DNA of 21,422 nt, from positions 1-21,422 of IMG/VR virus record IMGVR_UViG_3300005548_000042; one strand, given 5' to 3'. Below are positions 2,679-18,431 of this stretch, piece after piece. Each line of letters opens with the position of its first letter. Within the stretch, counting starts at the first letter, position 1. The notes below the pieces were generated by a model, which was not told the DNA's origin, did not search any database, and saw only the letters and a list, made by a program, of their open reading frames with translations. The DNA comes from a virus. A program made the position numbers and the translations under genes.

Positions 2679-5002
2679 CGCCCGGGGATCGCGAACATCT
2701 GCGGCGTCAGCCGCGCACCGACCGTCGGTTCCATCACGCCGGTGGCTCGGAGCGCCGCCTGCCGCTGCATCTCCGGCACGTTGGCGATCAGATCCCTGGC
2801 CTTGCCGATCCCCATCGGCAGCCGCTGCAGCAACGCGCTGGCGCGCTGCGCCAGCAGCGAGGTGGCGGTGCCCGAGCGGTTGGGGTTCTGCGCCGCCTGC
2901 AGCCCCTGCTGCAGGTAGGACAGCTCCCTGAGATCGTCGACCGGCAGACCAAGCTGGCGCAGCACCACCTCGCCACGACCGCTTAGGTGGCGGTTGATGC
3001 GGTCGATCATGCGCTGCGGATTCATCTCGTAGGCGTTGCCCGACTCGCCGAACAAGATCTTGTTCATCGCCGCCTGGCGCACGTCGTCGAGCAGGCCGGA
3101 ATTCGCCCCCCCCCGACTGGTCAGGTGATCGATGATGTCGCGCAGCGGCCCGCCGGCATCGAGGTCTTTGGTGGAAAACAGCGCGTCGTAAACCTGCTGA
3201 CCCCTCAGCTGCCCGTTCTCCAGCTTCTGCATGAACTGTGACGCGTTGTCGTTCCTGGGATCCCAGAAATCGCGCAGATCGGCATTGGCGCGGCGCGCAT
3301 CCCTCAGCATCTGGATGCGCGCCGGGTCGCCGCTGATCTGCCCGCCATTCACCGCGCCGTCGACCGTGTCATCGAGGCTCCGCTTCATCCTTGAGAGCAG
3401 CCGGAATTCCGTGCCGCCCTGCTGGGACTGATCGAGCAGCGCGCCGAGATCCTGCCGCGCTCGCTCCATTTGGCCGAGGTTGAATGGCCCCGCGGTGAGG
3501 TCGTCCATCACCTGGCGTCCGCGCACCGCGAGCGGCATGACCCCGGGCGTATCCGACACCCCGGCGTGGATGTCCTCGAGCGAGGTTCTCAGCGCCTGCG
3601 CCGTCTGCCGCGGAAACACGATCGGATTCGGCAGCGCCGCCTCGCCCTGCGGGGTGAGCCGCGGGAACCTCGCATAGGCGACGTCGCGTTGATCAGCGAG
3701 CGCCCTGCCGGCGGCGGCGATGCGGTTGCCGATCGACTGGCCGAGCTGCTCGGTGGTTTCCGTGCCGCCGGTGGCCGCCCGCGCCGCGTCGGTCAGTCGG
3801 GTGCGCTGCACGGCATCGAAGCCCTGCATGATGTCACGCCCGCCGCTGCCGCCGGCGCGCAGCACATGCTCGCGCCACAGCGCGCCGGGATCCATCGACG
3901 CCTGCCCGCCGGTCAGCGGCAGATCCTGTCGCTCGCCGCGGATCATCATGCCCGCGCCGGTCGGCTGGCCGGGCATGCCGCGCCGCTGCTGCGCCAGCAG
4001 CTTGTCGGCCTGGTCGGCCATGCGCGTGTTCAGCGCCCGCAGCTGCCCGACCGTCATCCCGGTCGGGTCGATGTTCTCGTTGGCGAAGATCTGCCGGCCG
4101 GTGGTGGTCAGCATCTCCGGCGTCACCGGCGCGGTGTCGGCGGCATCGATGCCGCTGCGCAGCAGCTGCCCGGTGCCGCGCCACGACCGCCAGAACGACG
4201 AGGCGAGGCGCCCGCCCAGCGTGCCGAGCCCGCCGAACACGCCGGCCATGGCGATTTCCTCGGGCGTGGTGCCCGAGCCGCCGCCGCCCGCCGCCTGCAC
4301 CGCGAGCCCGCTGCCGGCCTCGGCGCCGGCCTGGGCGCCGCCCTGCACAGCGGCCTCCCCGATGGCGCGCAGCACGCCGGGCGCCGCGAGCGCCTCGGTG
4401 ATGCGCCCGGCGCCGGTGGCGGCGAGCGCCGCGGCCGCCGTCTTGCCGCCCAAGGTCGTCAGATCCTGCAGATCGAACCCCGGGCGCGCGACGTAGTGCG
4501 GCTTGCCGTTCCAGATCACCATCGGGTTGCCGTGCGAGTCGGGGCTCGCCTCGATGATCTGGTTGGGATAGGCGGTCAGCAGCAGCCGCTGCAGCTGCTC
4601 GGGCCGCGCGCCCGAGGCAAGGCCGGTCTGCACATCCTGTCGCGCTTGCAGCCTGTCCAGATCCCCCCCAGCCAGAACGCCCGATGGAAGCGCCGGGATC
4701 TTGATCGGATCGGCGCGCTCCAGCGCGTCGAACCCGCCGGTGGCGTTGTAGATGTTCGGCACGTCGGGAAAACTGAACCGCGGCGCCCCGGTATCCGGCT
4801 CGCGCCCCTCGAAGCTGCGCACCACCCCGGTGGGCAGGTTGACGATGCTGTCCCAGGCGCGCCCGAGAATGCCGCGCTCGGGTAGCGACTTGGTGTCCAG
4901 CGCGCCGGTGCCGTAGTCGATGCCGCCCGACGGCGGGTCGGTGTGCAGCGGATCCTGCCCGGGCGGCAGCATCCCCGGCATAAAATCCGCGTCGTCAGCC
5001 AC
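2609..5002 (-). CDS. Large internal/ejection-type virion protein, 797 aa
   Basis: Encodes 797 residues with no enzyme motif that I can see. The N-terminal 180 residues are Pro/Gly-rich and include a segment ending YVARPGFDLQDL, of a kind I recall from other large phage ejection proteins. Residues about 185-268 are almost entirely Gly/Ala with amphipathic character, suitable for membrane insertion. The rest is long and helical. It follows the glucosaminidase protein directly, starting at a GTG that overlaps that gene's stop by 8 nt. Size, composition and position suggest a podovirus internal (core or DNA-ejection) protein comparable in role to T7 gp15/gp16. That comparison rests on context, not sequence match. 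Confidence 0.7.
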   Translation of the reverse strand: MADDADFMPGMLPPGQDPLHTDPPSGGIDYGTGALDTKSLPERGILGRAWDSIVNLPTGVVRSFEGREPDTGAPRFSFPDVPNIYNATGGFDALERADPIKIPALPSGVLAGGDLDRLQARQDVQTGLASGARPEQLQRLLLTAYPNQIIEASPDSHGNPMVIWNGKPHYVARPGFDLQDLTTLGGKTAAAALAATGAGRITEALAAPGVLRAIGEAAVQGGAQAGAEAGSGLAVQAAGGGGSGTTPEEIAMAGVFGGLGTLGGRLASSFWRSWRGTGQLLRSGIDAADTAPVTPEMLTTTGRQIFANENIDPTGMTVGQLRALNTRMADQADKLLAQQRRGMPGQPTGAGMMIRGERQDLPLTGGQASMDPGALWREHVLRAGGSGGRDIMQGFDAVQRTRLTDAARAATGGTETTEQLGQSIGNRIAAAGRALADQRDVAYARFPRLTPQGEAALPNPIVFPRQTAQALRTSLEDIHAGVSDTPGVMPLAVRGRQVMDDLTAGPFNLGQMERARQDLGALLDQSQQGGTEFRLLSRMKRSLDDTVDGAVNGGQISGDPARIQMLRDARRANADLRDFWDPRNDNASQFMQKLENGQLRGQQVYDALFSTKDLDAGGPLRDIIDHLTSRGGANSGLLDDVRQAAMNKILFGESGNAYEMNPQRMIDRINRHLSGRGEVVLRQLGLPVDDLRELSYLQQGLQAAQNPNRSGTATSLLAQRASALLQRLPMGIGKARDLIANVPEMQRQAALRATGVMEPTVGARLTPQMFAIPGRYASRPRVGAVGGGLLGGAGDQR

Positions 5003-7278: not shown

Positions 7279-7713
7279 TCACATCCCCAACAAGCCGCCA
7301 CCGGGCCCGCGGGGCGCCCACGGCTTGCCCGACAGCCCCAGCTGGCCGAGCGCCTGGCGGCGCTGCAGCAGCGTCTGCAGCAGCGTCTGCAGCGAGGGCG
7401 CGGTGTTCTGCTGCTGCGGCATCCCGGGCAGCGGCTGCACCTTCTGCTGGCCGGCCTGCGCATTCGGGGCGGCGAGCTGTTTCTGGATATCGCTGACCCC
7501 GCCCTTCAGGGCCGAGAGCTGCTTGGCGGTGCTGTCGCGGCCCAGCCAGTCGCCGAGCTGCTGGCCCCAGCTGCGGTCGTCTGGCGAGGTGTTGCCCGCG
7601 CCGAAGCCGATATCCTGTTCGGCGAACGGCGACGTCCCGGCTGGCGTCGACGTCCCGGGAAACATCAGCTGGCCGAAATCCAGCAGTTCGTTCTCGAACC
7701 CGCTCCCGCTCAT
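7279..7713 (-). CDS. Small Gln-rich virion-associated protein, 144 aa
   Basis: Encodes 144 residues: a Gly/Phe/Pro-rich first half and a Gln/Leu-rich second half with a short internal repeat (LQTLLQTLLQ). No enzyme motif or membrane span is visible. The ATG overlaps the stop of the PAPS-reductase-like gene as ATGA, and the gene ends 1 nt before the glucosaminidase gene starts. It is therefore embedded in the ejection-protein set and probably encodes a small internal virion or assembly protein; that role is inferred from position only. Confidence 0.65.
   Translation of the reverse strand: MSGSGFENELLDFGQLMFPGTSTPAGTSPFAEQDIGFGAGNTSPDDRSWGQQLGDWLGRDSTAKQLSALKGGVSDIQKQLAAPNAQAGQQKVQPLPGMPQQQNTAPSLQTLLQTLLQRRQALGQLGLSGKPWAPRGPGGGLLGM
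7363..7392 (-). repeat. 12-nt tandem repeat, 2.5 copies
   Basis: The plus-strand unit CTGCAGCAGCGT occurs twice, followed by a half copy. Inside the 144-aa gene it encodes LQTLLQTLLQ. Copy number could vary by slippage without a frameshift. Confidence 0.8.
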
Positions 7714-8495
7714 GGGCCGCCTCCGAGCAATTCGCGCACACCACCCATCTCCGTGACCTCCCGCGTCAGCGTGACCAGCGGCCCGTTGAGTTCGCGCACC
7801 ACCAGCGCCATGCGGGCGCGGTAGTCGTCGTACAGCGCCGGGTGGAATGCCCGCAGATAGGCGGCGCGCCGCTCGCCCCACCAGGCCGGGCAGCGCGCGC
7901 ATTCGGGGGCATTGGTGACGTGCTCGTAGATCCGGCAGAGCGGCGCGCCGACCTGGCGCAGATAGGCGAACACCTCGGCATGCGACCACTCCTGCAGCGG
8001 CAGCCAGAGCTCGATGCCGTCAGCCGTCGCGCCCGATTCGTATGACATGCGTGGCGTGTCGGCGCGCTTGCTGCCGCGGATCAGCAGCGTGTTGCCGTCC
8101 TCGCGGATCCGCCGGTAGAGCGGCATCGACAGGTTCGCGTGGCAGCATTTGTAACGCGGCACCAGCGTGGTGCCCTGCTGGCCCAGCAGGCGACCCATCG
8201 GGTGCTGGCTGTAGGGCACCAGATCCGACGGCAGCCCGTGCGCCGCGATCCAGCCCTGCACGTCGCGCTCGACCCGCACGAAATGCGGCGCAAAGGCTTC
8301 TACATGGGAAATGACATCAAGCACCTCAGGAAGAAGGTCGCCTGTGTCTAGGGTGTAGACCGTGCAACGATCCAGCTGATCCCGCAGCAGGTAAACGCAC
8401 GCGAGGGAGTCTTTACCCCCAGAAAACGAAACCGCTATACGTTCGTGACGATCCAAGGGACTAAGGTCAAACATGACGGCCGCCATATTTAACAT
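7710..8495 (-). CDS. PAPS reductase/ATP-pyrophosphatase family enzyme, 261 aa
   Basis: Carries the adenine-nucleotide alpha-hydrolase PP-loop SGGKDS at residues 25-30, followed by LDTGDLLPEV (49-58), a CC pair in YKCCHANL (117-118), GSKRAD (141-146) and a C-terminal CxxC (CARC, 199-202). These match the PAPS reductase/DndC-like superfamily, which activates substrates with ATP for sulfur transfer or reduction. The Cys set suggests redox or metal chemistry. It starts with a TAATG overlap at the end of the 314-aa gene. About the first 70 codons have G/C at only about 56% of third positions, against about 90% in the rest, which suggests a mosaic gene. The exact substrate is unknown; DNA or RNA modification is possible. 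Confidence 0.8.
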   Translation of the reverse strand: MLNMAAVMFDLSPLDRHERIAVSFSGGKDSLACVYLLRDQLDRCTVYTLDTGDLLPEVLDVISHVEAFAPHFVRVERDVQGWIAAHGLPSDLVPYSQHPMGRLLGQQGTTLVPRYKCCHANLSMPLYRRIREDGNTLLIRGSKRADTPRMSYESGATADGIELWLPLQEWSHAEVFAYLRQVGAPLCRIYEHVTNAPECARCPAWWGERRAAYLRAFHPALYDDYRARMALVVRELNGPLVTLTREVTEMGGVRELLGGGP

Positions 8496-9439
8496 TACAC
8501 GATCGTCGCGATGCTGGCGGCGACGCCGGCGGCGGTGCCGATGCCGCCCATGATCTGCCCCGCCGTGTTGGACTGCGGCGGCGGCCCGGTCGAGGTGGTG
8601 GTCGAACCGTGCGGTGTGGTGCCGAGCACCGACTCGATCAGGCTGAGGCCTTCGATCGGGTAGTTCCACTGGGTTTCCCAGTTCTGCGCCAGTTGGTCGA
8701 GCTCGGCCTGCGACTGGCCCTGTTCGGCGCGGCCAACCTGCTCGAGTAGCCCCGCCTCTTTCGCTGTCTCGGCCTGCCCGCCCACTGCGAGCTGCGGCAG
8801 CGTCGTCGTCGCCCACTGGCCGGCCGCGAGGTTTTGCTGCGCGAGGTTCCCCGCTAGGGTCTGCGCGCGGTCGTAGCCGCCCGACAGCAGGCCGCCGACC
8901 AGCTGCCCCTCGCCGAGCGCCTCCTGCGACTGCGCGGTGCCCTCCTGCACGCCGAGGCGACTGCCGCCGAACGCCCCGACATTCGACGCGTTGGCGCGCT
9001 CCTTGCCGAGCGACTGCGCGAGCCCCTGGCGCATCTGCGTCACGGTGGGATCCACCACCGCGGTCAAATAGGGGTTCATCAGCGCCGCGGTGTCGGTGTT
9101 GATCTGTCCGGTGGTGATCGGCGCCACTGAGTCCAGCAGCCCGCCGCCGGTGATCGCCCCCTGCGCCGCCCCGAATGCCGGCGCGGTCGCCCCCTGCATG
9201 TTGCGGATGGTGTCATAGGCCTGCGTCGCGGAGGCGCTCTGCGGCACGACCTTGGCGTAGGGGTTCGCTTCGTAGGGCCGCGCGGCGATCTGCTTGGCCT
9301 GCGCCAGCGCCTGCTCGCCGGCCTCTTGGATGAACGGCGGCAGTTGTGTGACTTGCGTCGTGGTCTGCGGCCCACCTGAGCCGCCGCCGCGCGCGATGGC
9401 GAAATCCGTGGCGTAGGGCGGCCGCCAGTAACCGGTCAT
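8495..9439 (-). CDS. Internal/injection-type virion structural protein, 314 aa
   Basis: Encodes 314 residues, rich in Gly, Ala, Gln and Thr. Two motifs recall a widespread phage injection/internal-protein family: NPYLTAVVDPTVTQ (about 122-135) and VGAFGGSRLGVQEG (about 154-167). The C-terminus ends in a hydrophobic Gly/Ala helix (GIGTAAGVAASIATIV) that could contact membrane or pack in the virion core. It follows the GNAT-like gene with an ATGA overlap and precedes the enzyme and glucosaminidase genes, so it is placed like the first ejection protein of podoviruses. The family link is from memory of motifs, not a search. Confidence 0.75.
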   Translation of the reverse strand: MTGYWRPPYATDFAIARGGGSGGPQTTTQVTQLPPFIQEAGEQALAQAKQIAARPYEANPYAKVVPQSASATQAYDTIRNMQGATAPAFGAAQGAITGGGLLDSVAPITTGQINTDTAALMNPYLTAVVDPTVTQMRQGLAQSLGKERANASNVGAFGGSRLGVQEGTAQSQEALGEGQLVGGLLSGGYDRAQTLAGNLAQQNLAAGQWATTTLPQLAVGGQAETAKEAGLLEQVGRAEQGQSQAELDQLAQNWETQWNYPIEGLSLIESVLGTTPHGSTTTSTGPPPQSNTAGQIMGGIGTAAGVAASIATIV

Positions 9440-9822
9440 GCATGCCCCCCGTTGAGCCGCAGCGGCAACGATTTCTGGAACCGCATACTGACCGGCACCC
9501 AGCCGGTCTTGCGCCCGACGCGCCCCCAGGCGCTGCGGCCATGCGTGACCATGAAGGCGCAGTCGTGTTCGCGCGCGAACGCCTCGATTTCCGGCTCCAT
9601 CTCGAGGATCTCAGGAAGCCGCCCGGCGCACGCCACCACGTTGCAAACGTTCTTTTGCGGGAAACCGAGGATCTCCGTGATCGCCAGCGAATTGTCGCGA
9701 TGCCAGATCTGCACGCGCCCTTCGCGCGCCTGCGCGATCAGGTCATCGAGCGTCGCGGTGCCGCCGGCGTCGCTGAGTGCGAGGTTGAGCTGCTGCACCA
9801 GGCGCTGATGTTCCGGCGTCAT
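9436..9822 (-). CDS. Phage protein with possible GNAT-like fold, 128 aa
   Basis: Encodes 128 residues. The order of segments resembles short GNAT-like proteins often found beside podovirus tail and ejection genes: a strand NSLAITEILGFPQK, then VCNVVACAGRLPEILEMEPEIEAFAREHDC, then THGRSAWGRVGRKTGWVPVSMRFQK. A clear acetyl-CoA-binding loop is not obvious, so it may be a non-catalytic relative used in assembly. Start and stop both overlap their neighbours as ATGA. Confidence is high that it is a gene, low for enzymatic activity. Confidence 0.7.
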   Translation of the reverse strand: MTPEHQRLVQQLNLALSDAGGTATLDDLIAQAREGRVQIWHRDNSLAITEILGFPQKNVCNVVACAGRLPEILEMEPEIEAFAREHDCAFMVTHGRSAWGRVGRKTGWVPVSMRFQKSLPLRLNGGHA

Positions 9823-10031
9823 CGCGGCACCACCACCGCCGACAGCGCGCCGGCATCGTCGACCGCGATGCGATACGTCGTGCCGTTCGGAGAGATCAGC
9901 TGCACGGCGGTGTAGACCGGCTCGAGCGTCGCATCCGCCTTGCGGCTCAGCGCATCGGCGATCTGGCGCATCTGATCGCGCGGGTTATCCGTCAGCGCCG
10001 GCGAGAACGGTGCGGGCGGGCGGTAGGCCAT
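9819..10031 (-). CDS. Small phage protein with C-terminal beta segment, 70 aa
   Basis: Encodes 70 residues: a Pro-rich start, a helix (DQMRQIADALSRKAD) and a strand pair LISPNGTTYRIAVDDAGALSAVVV. The C-terminal pattern is typical of small proteins that lie between tail hub and ejection genes in phages. Its ATG immediately follows the stop of the gp10-like gene, and its stop overlaps the next start as ATGA. Such spacing suggests strict coupling. Function is unknown; a small assembly or capping protein is likely. Confidence 0.65.
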   Translation of the reverse strand: MAYRPPAPFSPALTDNPRDQMRQIADALSRKADATLEPVYTAVQLISPNGTTYRIAVDDAGALSAVVVPR

Positions 10032-11570
10032 CTATCGATACCCGCCGGGCCGCACGATCAGCCGCGTCTTGCCCAGCGCGAAGGGACCGTCGCTCAAGGC
10101 CTCGATTCGCATGCGCAGGCTGCGCGCCGAGAACCGCACGTCGGTCAGGCCGCTGTCGTTGGTGATGGGGAACACGCCGGTGTCGGCCTCGGGACCGTTC
10201 GGCTCTTCCGCGGTGAAGAAGCGATATCCCGCGCGATCGGCAGGCCCGGTGAAATCCTGCGCGATTTGTTTCACATGAAACCGCCGGTCGGCCGCCTCGC
10301 TCAGGGCGAAGGCACCGGTTTCCAGATAGATCTGCGGTGCGCGCGAGACGCCGGAATCGGTCCAGCCGTATTCGTGATAGAGCACCTGGCCGGCGCCGTC
10401 GCACAGCACCGGGCGCACCATCGCGCCACGCACGTCCGACGCGGTGCGCTGCTGCTGGCCGATGATCCACGGGCGCGAAGCATCGCCATAGTTGTACGCC
10501 ACATAGCGGTTGCATTCGCTGGAGTCTTCGCTCGGCCAGTACCACCAGTGTTCGCTGAAGGCGGGGTTTGGTGCGCCGAACACCCGGCCGACCGCCTCGC
10601 GATTGAGCAGCGAAAACAGCCAGTCGCCGACATCCGACGGCAGTGGCGCCAGCGTGCCGTCGTAGCTCCAGAAACTCTGCTGGCTCATCCACGTCGTCAC
10701 GCCGCCGGCCTGGCTCATCGCGCGGCGGGAGATCGGGCCGCAATTCGCGCCGATCTTATTTATTCCATATGCGTAAGGTGGCCCGACGTAGCGCATCAAA
10801 TGGACATCATTGTCGGTCCAGATCAGCAGCCCGCTCGCCACCCGCATGGCATTCAGCGGGCGCCCCTCGGTTTCCAGCATCAGATTGCCGGCGAGGTTGT
10901 CGACCGCGGCGGCCCACACGTCGGGATTCTCCTGATCGGACCACGACACCTGGCGCGCATTGCCGGTGGCGCCGATCAGCACGACATGCCGCTCATCGGT
11001 GACCGCCACCGCGGCAGCGCCGGGGGGCGCGTTGGGCACCGGCGCCGCCGGTGTGGTGGGCGTATTGGGCGACCAGCGGCTCAGCACGCCGCTCTGCGTC
11101 GGCAACACCAAGAGGTCTTCGCCGAACAGGTGCAGTGACCACATATCGCCGAGCACCGCCGAGGCATCGCTGATGCCGATATCGGCGGGATCGCGCGCGG
11201 TGCCGTAGGCGTCGGCGCTGTAGAGTGCGAGGCCGTAGCCGACCGCAGCGCCTGGCGGCTCGAGCGGCCCGGTGCCGGCCGGCGTGATGTCGTAGAGTTG
11301 GCCCAGGCCGAAATCGAGCGCGTAGAGCGCGGTGTCGGTGCCGAATGCACCCCAACGCTGCCCGGTGTTGTCGTGCCAGGTCAGCACGTCGCGGCCCGGC
11401 CCGCCGAGGTCGATGCCGGGCAGCGCCGCCGAGCCGCCGACCGGCTGCGCCTGGCCGCCGCGCCAGCGCATCAGATTCATATCGAACCAACGGCCGCTCG
11501 ACGCGTCCGCCGTCGCGCCGCGGTAGATGCCCGGTTTCGGGAACACGGGAACGCGGCCGGTTTTTGCCAT
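10032..11570 (-). CDS. P22 gp10-like tail hub/DNA stabilization protein, 512 aa
   Basis: Encodes 512 residues, nearly all beta, with recurring blade-like units (for example GDMWSLHLFGEDLLVLPTQ, ERHVVLIGATGNARQVSWSD and ASGLLIWTDNDVHLMRY). It ends with a strand pair (VRFSARSLRMRIEAL, FALGKTRLIVRPGGYR) resembling the end of P22 gp10. In P22, gp10 forms the hub between head-tail adaptor and needle. The N-terminus (FPKPGIYRGATADASSGRWFDMNLMRW) is typical of this group in other phages. A TGATG overlap couples it to the collar protein upstream. The fold assignment is by pattern; the hub role is strengthened by the adaptor gene at 16511-17146. Confidence 0.75.
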   Translation of the reverse strand: MAKTGRVPVFPKPGIYRGATADASSGRWFDMNLMRWRGGQAQPVGGSAALPGIDLGGPGRDVLTWHDNTGQRWGAFGTDTALYALDFGLGQLYDITPAGTGPLEPPGAAVGYGLALYSADAYGTARDPADIGISDASAVLGDMWSLHLFGEDLLVLPTQSGVLSRWSPNTPTTPAAPVPNAPPGAAAVAVTDERHVVLIGATGNARQVSWSDQENPDVWAAAVDNLAGNLMLETEGRPLNAMRVASGLLIWTDNDVHLMRYVGPPYAYGINKIGANCGPISRRAMSQAGGVTTWMSQQSFWSYDGTLAPLPSDVGDWLFSLLNREAVGRVFGAPNPAFSEHWWYWPSEDSSECNRYVAYNYGDASRPWIIGQQQRTASDVRGAMVRPVLCDGAGQVLYHEYGWTDSGVSRAPQIYLETGAFALSEAADRRFHVKQIAQDFTGPADRAGYRFFTAEEPNGPEADTGVFPITNDSGLTDVRFSARSLRMRIEALSDGPFALGKTRLIVRPGGYR

Positions 11571-12427
11571 CAGTGCATGCCGCGCATCGGCGAGCGCAGC
11601 AGCCGCGATGGCGCCGGCCCCTCCTGCTGCATCAGCGTCATGCTCGGCGGCCCGACGAAGATGATTTTGGTCACCGCCAGGCGCGGGCTTGTGGTCGGAA
11701 ACGGCGCACTGCTGCCGCCCAGCCGTCCGGTGTGAGTGTGCCCGCCGCCGCCATAAGTTTGGATGTTGTGTTGGTGGGCGCCGTCGTTTGTGGTCGTGAG
11801 GTTGTGCGCGTGGTTGCCGGCCGCACCGGTGGCTTGATTGCCCCCCGCGGGAAACGGCCCGCTGCCGATCGCCACTGGGCCGGGCACGAACATGCCGGCA
11901 TAGGTGTGCGTGTGATCGCCCTGCCCGTCGGTGGCGCCGTTATGCGCGTGCAGCCCCTGCACGTCGGTGTAGCCGGTGTGCGCGTGGTCAGCGACCGCAT
12001 CGATGGCGATCGGCGCCGCCGGCAGGTTGGGTGTGCCGAGCGTTATGCTGAACCATCCGGTGGATTGCGCCAGCACATAACCGCCGACCACGCCGCCCGT
12101 ATCGGTCGCCGTGCCGACGCCGGCGGCGACACGGCCGCGCAGATCGGGCACGCAAAAGCTGGTCACGCCGTCGCCGCCGTAGCGCGTGCCGATCACCGCG
12201 AACAACTTGGGGAAAGAGGCGATTTCATAGGCGGCGCCGTCGCAGAGCAGCCAGCCCATCGGCGCCGCCGCTCCCGCGAAATCCAACAGCGCACCGATCG
12301 GCATCGCCGCGCCGAGCACCGTGTCGATGGTATCGAGGTCGGCGTTGAGACGGGTTCCCCAAGTATCCCGTGAGCTTCCGACTTCGGGCTTTTCCAACCC
12401 CCAATAGGGCGTGAATGTTGAAGCCAT
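11570..12427 (-). CDS. Tail collar-domain fibre protein with HxH metal-binding repeats, 285 aa
   Basis: The N-terminus ([19 protein letters not shown], residues 6-24) matches the anchor-like start of the larger fibre at 13845. Residues about 43-100 form a phage tail collar domain ([23 protein letters not shown] and CVPDLRGRV). Six HxH motifs follow at residues 148, 160, 172, 206, 218 and 230, spaced exactly 12 residues within each triplet. In T4 long tail fibre tips such motifs in a trimer bind metal ions; the same is inferred here. The Gly/Asn-rich region continues to a C-terminal strand ([14 protein letters not shown]). The gene overlaps both neighbours as TGATG. Confidence 0.85.
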
Positions 12428-13092
12428 CAGTTGCCCCTTGCTGTCTTTCGTCTCGCCATTATCATCGTGTTACTGTCCAGGGTGCATCTCTTACATTTCC
12501 TCGACCGGCGGCCACAGGCTTTCGTCTGCCAGTAGGTATTCTCTGGCGTGTATTCGTGGCCACGCTTGCAGTGAGTCTTATTGGCGTGTCCGTTGCGACC
12601 TTTTCGGTCACGGTCCAGGTTGTTTTCGGCTACCGTACCCACAAACAGATGGTCAGGATTGACGCATAGTCTGTTATCGCAGTGATGGCAGACCACAATT
12701 CCAGGCGCGATCACGCCATGCGTTGCCTCCCATGCCGCGCGATGCGCCTGCCGGTGTCGGCCGTCAGTGATATACTTACCGTAACCCCGGCCATCGACCG
12801 CACCTTCCCACAACCAACATCCGCTCATCGGTTCGGGCACAGCGTGATCGCGCCAGTCATCACTCGTGGTCTTTTTGGATCGTGGGATCAGGTGTGCGGA
12901 ATTTACGCAGAAACGGTTGCCGCAAGAGGGGGTTAAAATCGCGCCGACTGGCAACGGCCCGTTGGCGGCCCCCCAAGCGAGCCGGCGCACTTGGATATCG
13001 CCGATCCTTGGGTATCCGCGCGTGACCGAGCCTTCCCATAGCAGGCATCCGCTGTTCGGCTCGGGGATAGTCTGACTGTTCCACTCGCTCAT
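12427..13092 (-). CDS. Free-standing HNH endonuclease with duplicated HNH domain, 221 aa
   Basis: Two homologous HNH units lie in tandem. The second (about residues 86-160) is intact: [20 protein letters not shown], then [19 protein letters not shown] with H136/H137, N145 and H148. The first (about 10-80) keeps GCLLWEG and CVNSAHL but has TPSC where the second has CHHC, so it lacks the catalytic histidines. A C-terminal Cys/His cluster (C175, H179, C193, C200, C203) probably binds zinc. Such genes are mobile homing endonucleases that spread between phages. It sits in the fibre block, has lower third-position G/C than its neighbours, and its stop overlaps the collar gene as TGATG. The start has no strong ribosome-binding site. 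Confidence 0.85.
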
Positions 13093-17876: not shown

Positions 17877-18431
17877 ATGGCTGCCAACAAACTGCCCGAT
17901 ATCCGTTTCGTCCGCGAGTGCCTGGATTACGATCCGGACACCGGGCTGCTCATCTGGCGCGAGCGGCCGCTGCACCATTTTTCCAACGCCGCAAGCCAGA
18001 AGCGCATGAATGCCTGCTACGCTGGCAAGGTCGCCGGCTCCGAGCATGCTGCAGGCAGGCGAGGTGAGCGTAGCTACTGGGGCGTCCGCCTTGCCGGGGT
18101 GTTCTACCCGGCCCACCGGCTCGCCTGGTTGCTGTTTCATGGGACAGACCCCGAAGGGCTCGAGGTCGACCACATCAACGGCAATGGACTGGACAACAGC
18201 ATCGCCAATCTGCGCGTGGCCACGCGCAGCGAGAACGCCCTGAACGGCCGGGCGCACTCCGACAGCCAAACCCGCGTCAAGGGGGTCCAGCGGAACGGTA
18301 GCGGCTACGCGGCGAGGATTATGCTGCACGGTAAGTCCTATTATTTGGGAACCTTCCCTAGCGTCTACGAGGCTGCGGCGGCGCGACGAGCGGAGATGAA
18401 GCGCCTGGGAATCTTCCCAGGCGACGAGTAA
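17877..18431 (+). CDS. HNH-AP2 homing endonuclease on the opposite strand, 184 aa
   Basis: The N-terminal part has DYDPDTGLLIWRERP, typical of HNH homing enzymes. The nuclease core is at about residues 79-120: AHRLAW, then LEVDHINGNGLDNSIANLRV with H99 and N111 among the catalytic/metal residues, then ATRSENALNG. An AP2-like DNA-binding domain follows at about 132-176 (TRVKGVQRNGSGYAARI, GKSYYLGTF, EAAAARRAEM). The AGGAGG ribosome-binding site at 17866-17871 is strong. It is the only confident plus-strand gene and lies head-on to the capsid gene, with 10 nt between their stops. This is a mobile insertion in the head module. A nearby target site in a cognate allele is expected. Confidence 0.9.
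   Translation: MAANKLPDIRFVRECLDYDPDTGLLIWRERPLHHFSNAASQKRMNACYAGKVAGSEHAAGRRGERSYWGVRLAGVFYPAHRLAWLLFHGTDPEGLEVDHINGNGLDNSIANLRVATRSENALNGRAHSDSQTRVKGVQRNGSGYAARIMLHGKSYYLGTFPSVYEAAAARRAEMKRLGIFPGDE

Follow-up and report, generated by a model that had tools for sequence, protein, structure and literature searches.

A PAPS reductase-like phage enzyme in an optional slot beside an ejection protein gene, and its covariation with the C-terminus of that protein

The cassette and the enzyme gene

The window, i.e., the whole stretch of DNA that was analyzed, is a virus record of 21.4 kb and probably a partial genome. It carries a cassette of minus-strand genes whose features are listed in Table 1. 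A preliminary description of this DNA had pointed to a PAPS-reductase/ATP-pyrophosphatase enzyme within an ejection module. The open reading frame is real, its translated aa sequence belongs to the Pfam PAPS_reduct domain family (PF01507; E 9.9e-13, 48.9 bits with a cut-off of 22.5), and the arrangement recurs in many loci. All three motifs that had been named are present: SGGKDS (S25 to S30), CC (C117-C118) and CxxC (C199-xx-C202). The overlapping codons that were said to couple the gene to both neighbors are also found, TAATG at the junction with ej1 and ATGA (-4 nt) at the junction with ej2. All of the 88 relatives keep the CC pair, and nine of ten enzyme pairs, those that were computable, have a dN/dS of 0.04-0.35; thus the gene is genuine and stands above chance.

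Table 1. Features of the cassette in the window
Feature	Coordinates	Strand	Remarks
Virion structural protein (phrog_3287), 512 aa	10032..11570	-	upstream end of the cassette
70-aa ORF upstream of the GNAT gene	9819..10031	-	matches in 13 loci, window included
GNAT-fold protein (family B), 128 aa	9436..9822	-	directly upstream of ej1
ej1, ejection-type protein, 314 aa	8495..9439	-	PHROG DNA ejection protein; stop overlaps enzyme start (TAATG)
ej1 last 20 residues, codons	8498..8557	-	uncharged hydrophobic tail, end ...ASIATIV; proposed substrate end
GC dip at the 5′ end of the enzyme gene	8300..8499	-	0.515 versus ~0.70; low identity to nearest relative; possible recombination boundary
PP-loop ATP-pyrophosphatase/PAPS_reduct-domain enzyme	7710..8495	-	261 aa; conserved C117, C118, C199, C202; without the reductase Cys motif
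ej2, 144 aa, downstream of the enzyme	7279..7713	-	ATGA overlap; homolog directly after ej1 in enzyme-less locus L146
ej3, 759 aa	4995..7274	-	Glucosaminidase domain; gene next after ej2

The ej1 protein matches the PHROG "DNA ejection protein" family (E 7.7e-14). No match to ej2 was found in Pfam or PHROG, and its label as ejection-type therefore rests on position, i.e., on the homolog that directly follows ej1 in locus L146 and on the Glucosaminidase-domain gene that comes next. The enzyme had been placed between two ejection-type proteins; for the upstream neighbor a family match bears this out, and for the downstream neighbor it holds by position.

The large probable ejection protein ej3 has, in its Glucosaminidase domain, a candidate wall-cutting activity for genome entry. 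The ej2-type proteins end in GLLGM or GLLGF in the window and in several enzyme-less relatives, which is a second recurring C-terminus in the cassette. Two HNH_3 homing-type endonuclease genes are found among the structural genes of the window, at 12427-13092 (-) and at 17877-18431 (+), the latter on the opposite strand and adjoining the major head protein gene. In the enzyme gene itself, the first ~75 aligned codons show a pS of 0.56 versus 0.26 elsewhere, relative to the nearest relative, L006. Together with the GC dip, this divergence possibly marks a recombination breakpoint inside the enzyme gene.

Relatives and gene order

Among named records, relatives of the enzyme occur in the Lessievirus group of Burkholderia phages (eight records, 39-43% identity), in Aeromonas phage phiA008 and in one uncultured phage. 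BcepIL02 gp67 aligns with 41.5% identity over 90% of the query, and the synteny is shared, which places the window enzyme with the PAPS reductase-like proteins of the Lessievirus phages. The gene order in BcepIL02 is structural gene, small gene, acyltransferase, virion protein, enzyme, virion protein, virion protein and DarB-like giant. In phiA008 (L003, 9974-10696) the annotated coding region starts at 10163 and omits the PP-loop, with starts of the open frame present at 9974 and 9980.

From a profile scan the best 80 IMG/VR loci were kept, together with four close loci from bacterial genomes; the set used here has 92 loci and includes near-duplicates. By script, the upstream neighbor lies within -30 to +20 nt of the enzyme gene in 80 of 82 of these loci and the downstream neighbor in 82 of 86, counts that lean towards tight coupling because the script takes the start nearest to the neighbor's stop and because in over a dozen loci it accepts a short ORF as the upstream gene. 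Loci with a fused methyltransferase and enzyme yield no upstream gene in this count.

Optional presence of the enzyme gene

A GNAT gene of family A or B is found upstream in 79 of the 92 loci, in one of them (L093) 4.2 kb from the enzyme stop; three of the 13 loci without it have under 1 kb of upstream sequence. The GNAT gene product of the window has a predicted GNAT fold, as its AF2 model (pLDDT 83.3) matches PCAF/GCN5 in Foldseek (E 1.6e-4) and aligns to N-terminal acetyltransferases with Z ~10. The gene was considered as an enzyme-specific partner and rejected: family A matches 44 named records, and only eight of these, all from Burkholderia, are among the matches of the enzyme. In Erwinia phage PEp14 (L114) the gene annotated at 4474-4932 is on the minus strand and the GNAT homolog reads on the plus strand, probably a misannotation.

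The slot that the enzyme gene occupies between ej1 and ej2 is optional. Ten named phages have the same cassette or a similar one, and none of them has such an enzyme annotated there. A search with the window structural protein gave 42 loci, 17 of which extend at least 2.5 kb past the GNAT gene, and 15 of these 17 are enzyme-less; two shorter loci from the same search (L143 and L007) have the enzyme. A search with the BcepIL02 GNAT gave 21 loci, nine of them enzyme-less. In L146 a clear homolog of the window ej2 directly follows ej1, and this locus represents an empty site. In 13 of the 15 enzyme-less loci, the ones that read cleanly, the gene after ej1 looks to be of the ej2 type, as called by eye from the first 160 residues.

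The best tree of the enzyme implies eight changes of GNAT family, and its well-supported branches force at least three for family B. The enzyme therefore appears to have moved between phage backgrounds with the same slot kept.

Class of the enzyme

The catalytic Cys motif of CysH, ECG(I/L)H, is present in all four CysH controls and in none of the 88 phage relatives. Likewise, a Lys two residues on after CC is found in none of the 61 phage proteins in the alignment; the CysH controls display RK (three) or NK (E. coli). In CysH, the Lys that follows the Cys pair has a role in substrate binding. The [4Fe-4S]-type ligands CC and CxxC are present in 88 of 88 relatives and align with those of three APS-type CysH controls. 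SGG(K/R)DS is found in 88 of 88 phage proteins versus none of the four CysH controls, the phage count being inflated by use of the motif as a search pattern. Since the search patterns included SGGKDS and CxxC, the conservation of these two motifs is partly selected for; CC was in the first pattern set and not in the later broad ones. A C..C...HP motif is shared by 78 of 88 phage proteins, five of five SspD, four of seven archaeal proteins and one of four CysH, and by none of four DndC.

The NCBIfam CysH model (NF002537) gives 30.9 bits against a cut-off of 154, the DndC model (TIGR03183) 11.2 against 290.4, and the SspD model a weak score. In the tree, which is a quick one with long branches flagged by the program, a branch with SH-aLRT 100 separates all 61 phage rows from CysH, CysD, SspD, DndC and the archaeal multidomain proteins. 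The AF2 model of the enzyme (pLDDT 95.4) has as its best Foldseek match the [4Fe-4S] APS reductase 2goy (E 8e-9). The APS reductases are followed by ATP-using PP-loop enzymes, including tRNA thiolases, with NcsA and TtuA at Z 12-13 in the VIA-align structural alignment; neither DndC nor SspD is among the VIA-align matches listed. The family is acidic, with a median pI of 5.75. Among the 10 other ORFs of the window, a partial genome, PADLOC found no SspD/DndC phosphorothioation partners. Of the four bacterial genomes in which a close relative was found, three also encode a full-scoring CysH.

Thus two candidate functions are rejected, sulfate assimilation by CysH on residues, model score and tree, and DndC-type phosphorothioation on score and tree. 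The preliminary description had named close clustering with CysH, together with action in sulfate assimilation only, as the outcome that would speak against it, and neither the residues, the CysH score nor the tree display such clustering; the comparison with DndC that it proposed gave a score far under the cut-off and a separate clade. To judge from the aa sequences, the enzyme is not a PAPS or APS reductase: residues required by the reductases are lost, and an ATP-type PP-loop and four [4Fe-4S]-type cysteines are kept.

Association with a methyltransferase

The METHYLTRANSFERASE partner is a class I SAM methyltransferase, found nearby or fused in 36 of the 92 loci (near-duplicates included). 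It is fused in front of the enzyme in 13, fused behind in one, separate upstream in 16 and separate downstream in six; among the 16, it lies ~250-700 nt away in L024 and L028. Both domains were detected by Pfam in the four fusions scanned, and the phrog_424 profile spans both the methyltransferase and the enzyme parts. On the best enzyme tree the presence of the methyltransferase changes 12 times, with eight changes forced by well-supported branches. None was found in the 24 enzyme-less loci with room for it, nor in the window; the ten named loci L114-L123 lie outside this search. Two of the fusions, compared with 50,697 named phage records, had no match over 80% of their length. The methyltransferase has a weak match to a PHROG tRNA methyltransferase family and is of a general, small-molecule-like type that resembles 3bus and MitM. 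In the bacterium Limnohabitans sp. T6-5 (L094), whose genome has its own CysH, one fusion is part of a prophage-like cassette within a contig of 1.3 Mb.

The C-terminus of ej1

Enzyme presence covaries with the C-terminal residue of ej1. The trait compared is a last residue F, L, I, V, M, W or Y together with no D, E, K, R or H in the last 8 residues, a rule that was framed after part of the ej1 C-termini had been seen. In a first count the trait was found in 68 of 71 enzyme-bearing phages versus three of 37 enzyme-less ones; this count took as enzyme-less six loci whose contigs end too soon (L154, L157, L165, L166, L174 and L179) and left out enzyme-less loci with ej1 further from the GNAT gene, including L159 and L164, both of which have the trait. 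The ej1 gene was set by hand in L006, L029, L067, L093, L119, L120 and L156. Two archaeal matches to the GNAT profile (L101 and L106) were removed, as were 25 hand-judged duplicates, loci without a GNAT match and loci without an ej1 candidate.

The rule was then fixed and applied to 36 fresh non-redundant loci, where the trait is present in 22 of 22 enzyme-bearing and none of 14 enzyme-less phages; it should be noted that the enzyme-less query came from a clade with a known polar end and that 13 of the 14 resemble that clade. The fresh set was drawn from 166 loci. Of these, 10 were without a GNAT, 24 were too short and 13 lacked ej1, which left 119; from these, 63 were removed for an identity of at least 90% to an earlier ej1 and 20 for redundancy. 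An inclusive recount began with 333 loci, of which 35 were too short, eight lacked both GNAT and enzyme, and 17 had the enzyme and no readable ej1. The remaining 273 were collapsed to unique tails of the last 15 residues, and the trait is found in 92 of 98 enzyme-bearing versus five of 51 enzyme-less tails (Fisher 5e-26, ancestry ignored). By GNAT family the counts are 77/79 versus 1/34 in family A and 12/14 versus 4/17 in family B, with 3/5 where there is no GNAT match. Thus the link between enzyme and ej1 tail is weaker in family B, the family of the window.

The contrast is sharpest at the very last residue. At position -1 a bulky residue is found in 94% of enzyme-bearing versus 14% of enzyme-less tails in the recount (96% and 10% in the earlier 84 and 40 tails), and at position -2 in 52% versus 49% (54% and 53% in the earlier tails). 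At each of the last ten positions D, E, K or R is present in at most 1% of enzyme-bearing tails versus 4-18% of the others. Other products of the cassette, taken as controls, do not display this pattern: a bulky last residue is found in 17 of the 79 encoded after the enzyme, in 13 of 88 GNATs and in 14 of 92 enzymes. A tail motif GGLFGL(A/G)G is similar in the two groups, with polar ends in enzyme-less phages and hydrophobic ends in enzyme-bearing ones.

An origin of the ej1 end in the nucleotide overlap with the enzyme gene was considered. In 29 loci a methyltransferase gene or domain lies between ej1 and the enzyme; ej1 is readable in 19 of these and the trait holds in 17 of the 19. The codon overlap is therefore not the cause of the ending, and this candidate is rejected.

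Phylogenetically independent pairs on the ej1 trees mostly agree with the covariation, but they are too few and no run reached 0.05. In the inclusive set 3.6 pairs of 4 run the same way and 0.05 the other in family A, and 1.1 and 0.16 of 3 in family B. An earlier run gave 4.9 and 0 of 5 (family A) and 0.9 and 0 of 2 (family B), and another, the first, 3.7 and 0 of 4 (family A) and 1.5 and 0.1 of 3 (family B). The ej1 alignments behind these trees are poor, with 251 of 1,338 columns kept for family A in the run that gave 4.9 pairs.

Enzyme-less phages that have the trait are L146, L156, L159, L164 and L290, and also L162; L179 has it as well, with the enzyme slot beyond its contig. Enzyme-bearing phages without it are L017, L018, L020 and L044, and L026 and L093, which also fail, look misread. 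The cysteine content of ej1 gave no usable contrast, as some sequences carry frame-extended ends.

Data on virions exist for Burkholderia phage JC1. In the published material available on CsCl-purified JC1 virions, gp64 (the ej1 homolog), gp67 and gp68 are listed by mass spectrometry (MS), and neither the enzyme (gp65) nor the GNAT acetyltransferase (gp63) is named in that text or table. Late expression with virion proteins had been suggested for the enzyme; read as presence in the virion, this does not fit the JC1 list as available. The gp64 tail ends ...AGAGIMAF, the encoded end being ...GGLGTVAGAGIMAF. By eye, gp64 (L370, 458-1456) has a hydrophobic segment near its N-terminus that the window ej1 lacks.

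Possible function of the enzyme

The explanation given most weight, tentatively, is that the enzyme activates and modifies the C-terminus of ej1 during assembly. It would be made together with the ejection proteins and act in the infected cell, and would not be packaged. With ATP the enzyme could adenylate, and so activate, the alpha-carboxylate of the bulky hydrophobic residue at the C-terminus of ej1. The activated oxygen may then be replaced, by sulfur if the cluster works as in the [4Fe-4S] thiolases and otherwise by nitrogen, and in some phages the methyltransferase may cap the product. The charge-free hydrophobic tail of ej1 would lose its terminal negative charge, which could aid entry into the host membrane at DNA ejection. 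The ATP step and the cluster are predicted from family knowledge and conserved residues, and ej1 is proposed as the substrate because of the covariation of its end with the enzyme. The identity of the added group and the membrane role are the least certain parts and are guesses. It should also be noted that a shared third factor would yield the same correlation. Of the targets that the preliminary description had listed (packaged DNA, host metabolites or a virion component), the covariation with the ej1 C-terminal residue gives a modest lean to a virion component.

A wider statement is that a dedicated phage set, a PP-loop [4Fe-4S] enzyme with or without the methyltransferase, modifies the C-terminal carboxylate of ejection proteins at assembly and neutralizes a charge-free hydrophobic tail for host-membrane entry, i.e., a post-translational modification needed for genome ejection by a new PP-loop chemistry. 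In this full form the claim is rather unlikely. Modification of a protein C-terminus by a PP-loop enzyme that uses an iron-sulfur cluster is not known to us.

A doubtful but serious alternative is an ATP- and [4Fe-4S]-dependent thiolase that acts on nucleic acid, either phage DNA at a late stage of infection or tRNA of the host. In some phages the methyltransferase would then complete a more extensive modification, and the site among ejection genes would reflect late expression alone. The ATP-type PP-loop with CC and CxxC, as in thiolating PP-loop enzymes, the structural matches to the tRNA thiolases NcsA and TtuA, the C..C...HP motif common to SspD, and a methyltransferase partner with its weak tRNA methyltransferase match are all consistent with it. 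However the DndC and SspD scores and the separate clade, the lack of a phosphorothioation partner among the 10 other ORFs of the partial genome, the acidic pI and the small-molecule-like type of the methyltransferase argue against it, and the covariation at the ej1 C-terminus is left unexplained.

An accessory role in metabolism is unlikely; the substrate during infection would then be a nucleotide or a small metabolite of the host, and the gene would keep to one place because insertions are tolerated there. Such a role would fit a slot that is optional and patchily filled, a gene that has moved between backgrounds as the GNAT family changes on the enzyme tree suggest, and a methyltransferase like the small-molecule enzymes 3bus and MitM. 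A tolerant site should, however, take varied cargo, and the ej2-type gene seen by eye in 13 of 15 enzyme-less loci does not agree with this; the ej1 covariation is again unaccounted for.

The correlation with ej1 could also be real but indirect, whereby hydrophobic-ended ejection proteins descend with an enzyme that acts elsewhere in the cassette, e.g., on ej2 or ej3. The independent pairs are few, the contrast is weaker in family B and the slot also borders ej2. But an indirect link, which is judged quite improbable, has to contend with a contrast that is sharpest at the last residue itself and with GGLFGL(A/G)G-like tails that have polar ends without the enzyme and hydrophobic ends with it.

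That the enzyme is after all a PAPS/APS reductase (CysH) and raises sulfate assimilation in the host, the role published for JC1, is hardly credible: the PAPS_reduct domain, the APS reductase as best structural match and the published annotation speak for it, but against these stand the missing catalytic Cys motif (0 of 88) and Lys (0 of 61), the low CysH score, the separate clade and the CysH genes already present in three of four bacterial genomes.

If C-terminal modification by the enzyme is true, this would be a new kind of system, and the ejection proteins of many podoviruses would carry an unrecognized modification. The crossing of the envelope by ejection proteins could then be addressed by mass measurement on cultured phages such as JC1 and BcepIL02.

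Comparison with known systems

Phage genes of this kind are already known by annotation. The PAPS reductase-like protein of Lessievirus (Bcep22-like) phages (BcepIL02 gp67, JC1 gp65, DC1, BcepMigl and CSP3) has 39-43% identity to the window enzyme, and in BcepIL02 and JC1 virion genes flank it in the corresponding slot and an acetyltransferase gene lies upstream, as in the window; the GNAT and structural-protein families differ. In the portions available, the JC1 and CSP3 papers discuss the enzyme solely as a sulfate-assimilation moron, and the CSP3 paper describes PAPS reductases as assimilating sulfate and cites a phage 186 gene as non-essential. In the literature searched, no paper was found that deals with a modified C-terminus in ejection proteins or with fusion of the methyltransferase to the enzyme, nor one that describes the missing reductase residues, compares occupied with empty sites or links the enzyme to the ejection-protein end. 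The terms "phosphoadenosine phosphosulfate reductase" and "auxiliary metabolic" occur together in many virome papers. Since the family lacks the reductase residues, virome counts that include such genes would overstate viral sulfur metabolism.

The APS reductases and CysH (2goy, 7lhr) have the same fold as the phage enzyme (Z ~16), and the [4Fe-4S] sites formed by CC and CxxC align; SGG(K/R)DS is found in the phage enzymes only, whereas ECG(I/L)H and the Lys after CC are found in the CysH controls only. SspD of the SspABCD phosphorothioation system shares with the phage enzyme the ATP-type PP-loop, CxxC and an HP motif after CxxC, but the two SspD aligned have one Cys where the phage proteins have CC, and SspD falls in a separate clade. 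The best cellular scorers for the phage profile, up to 69.8 bits, are archaeal PAPS-reductase-domain multidomain proteins, which by name we take to be PRK13795-like. The one aligned has both CC and CxxC; unlike the phage proteins, they have frames of 531-767 aa and form a separate clade. The [4Fe-4S] thiolases TtuA and NcsA have the PP-loop fold in common with the phage enzyme at the Z values given above, which is a likeness by fold. These thiolases and the sulfur insertase LarE combine ATP with cluster chemistry and serve as the model for the proposed reaction.
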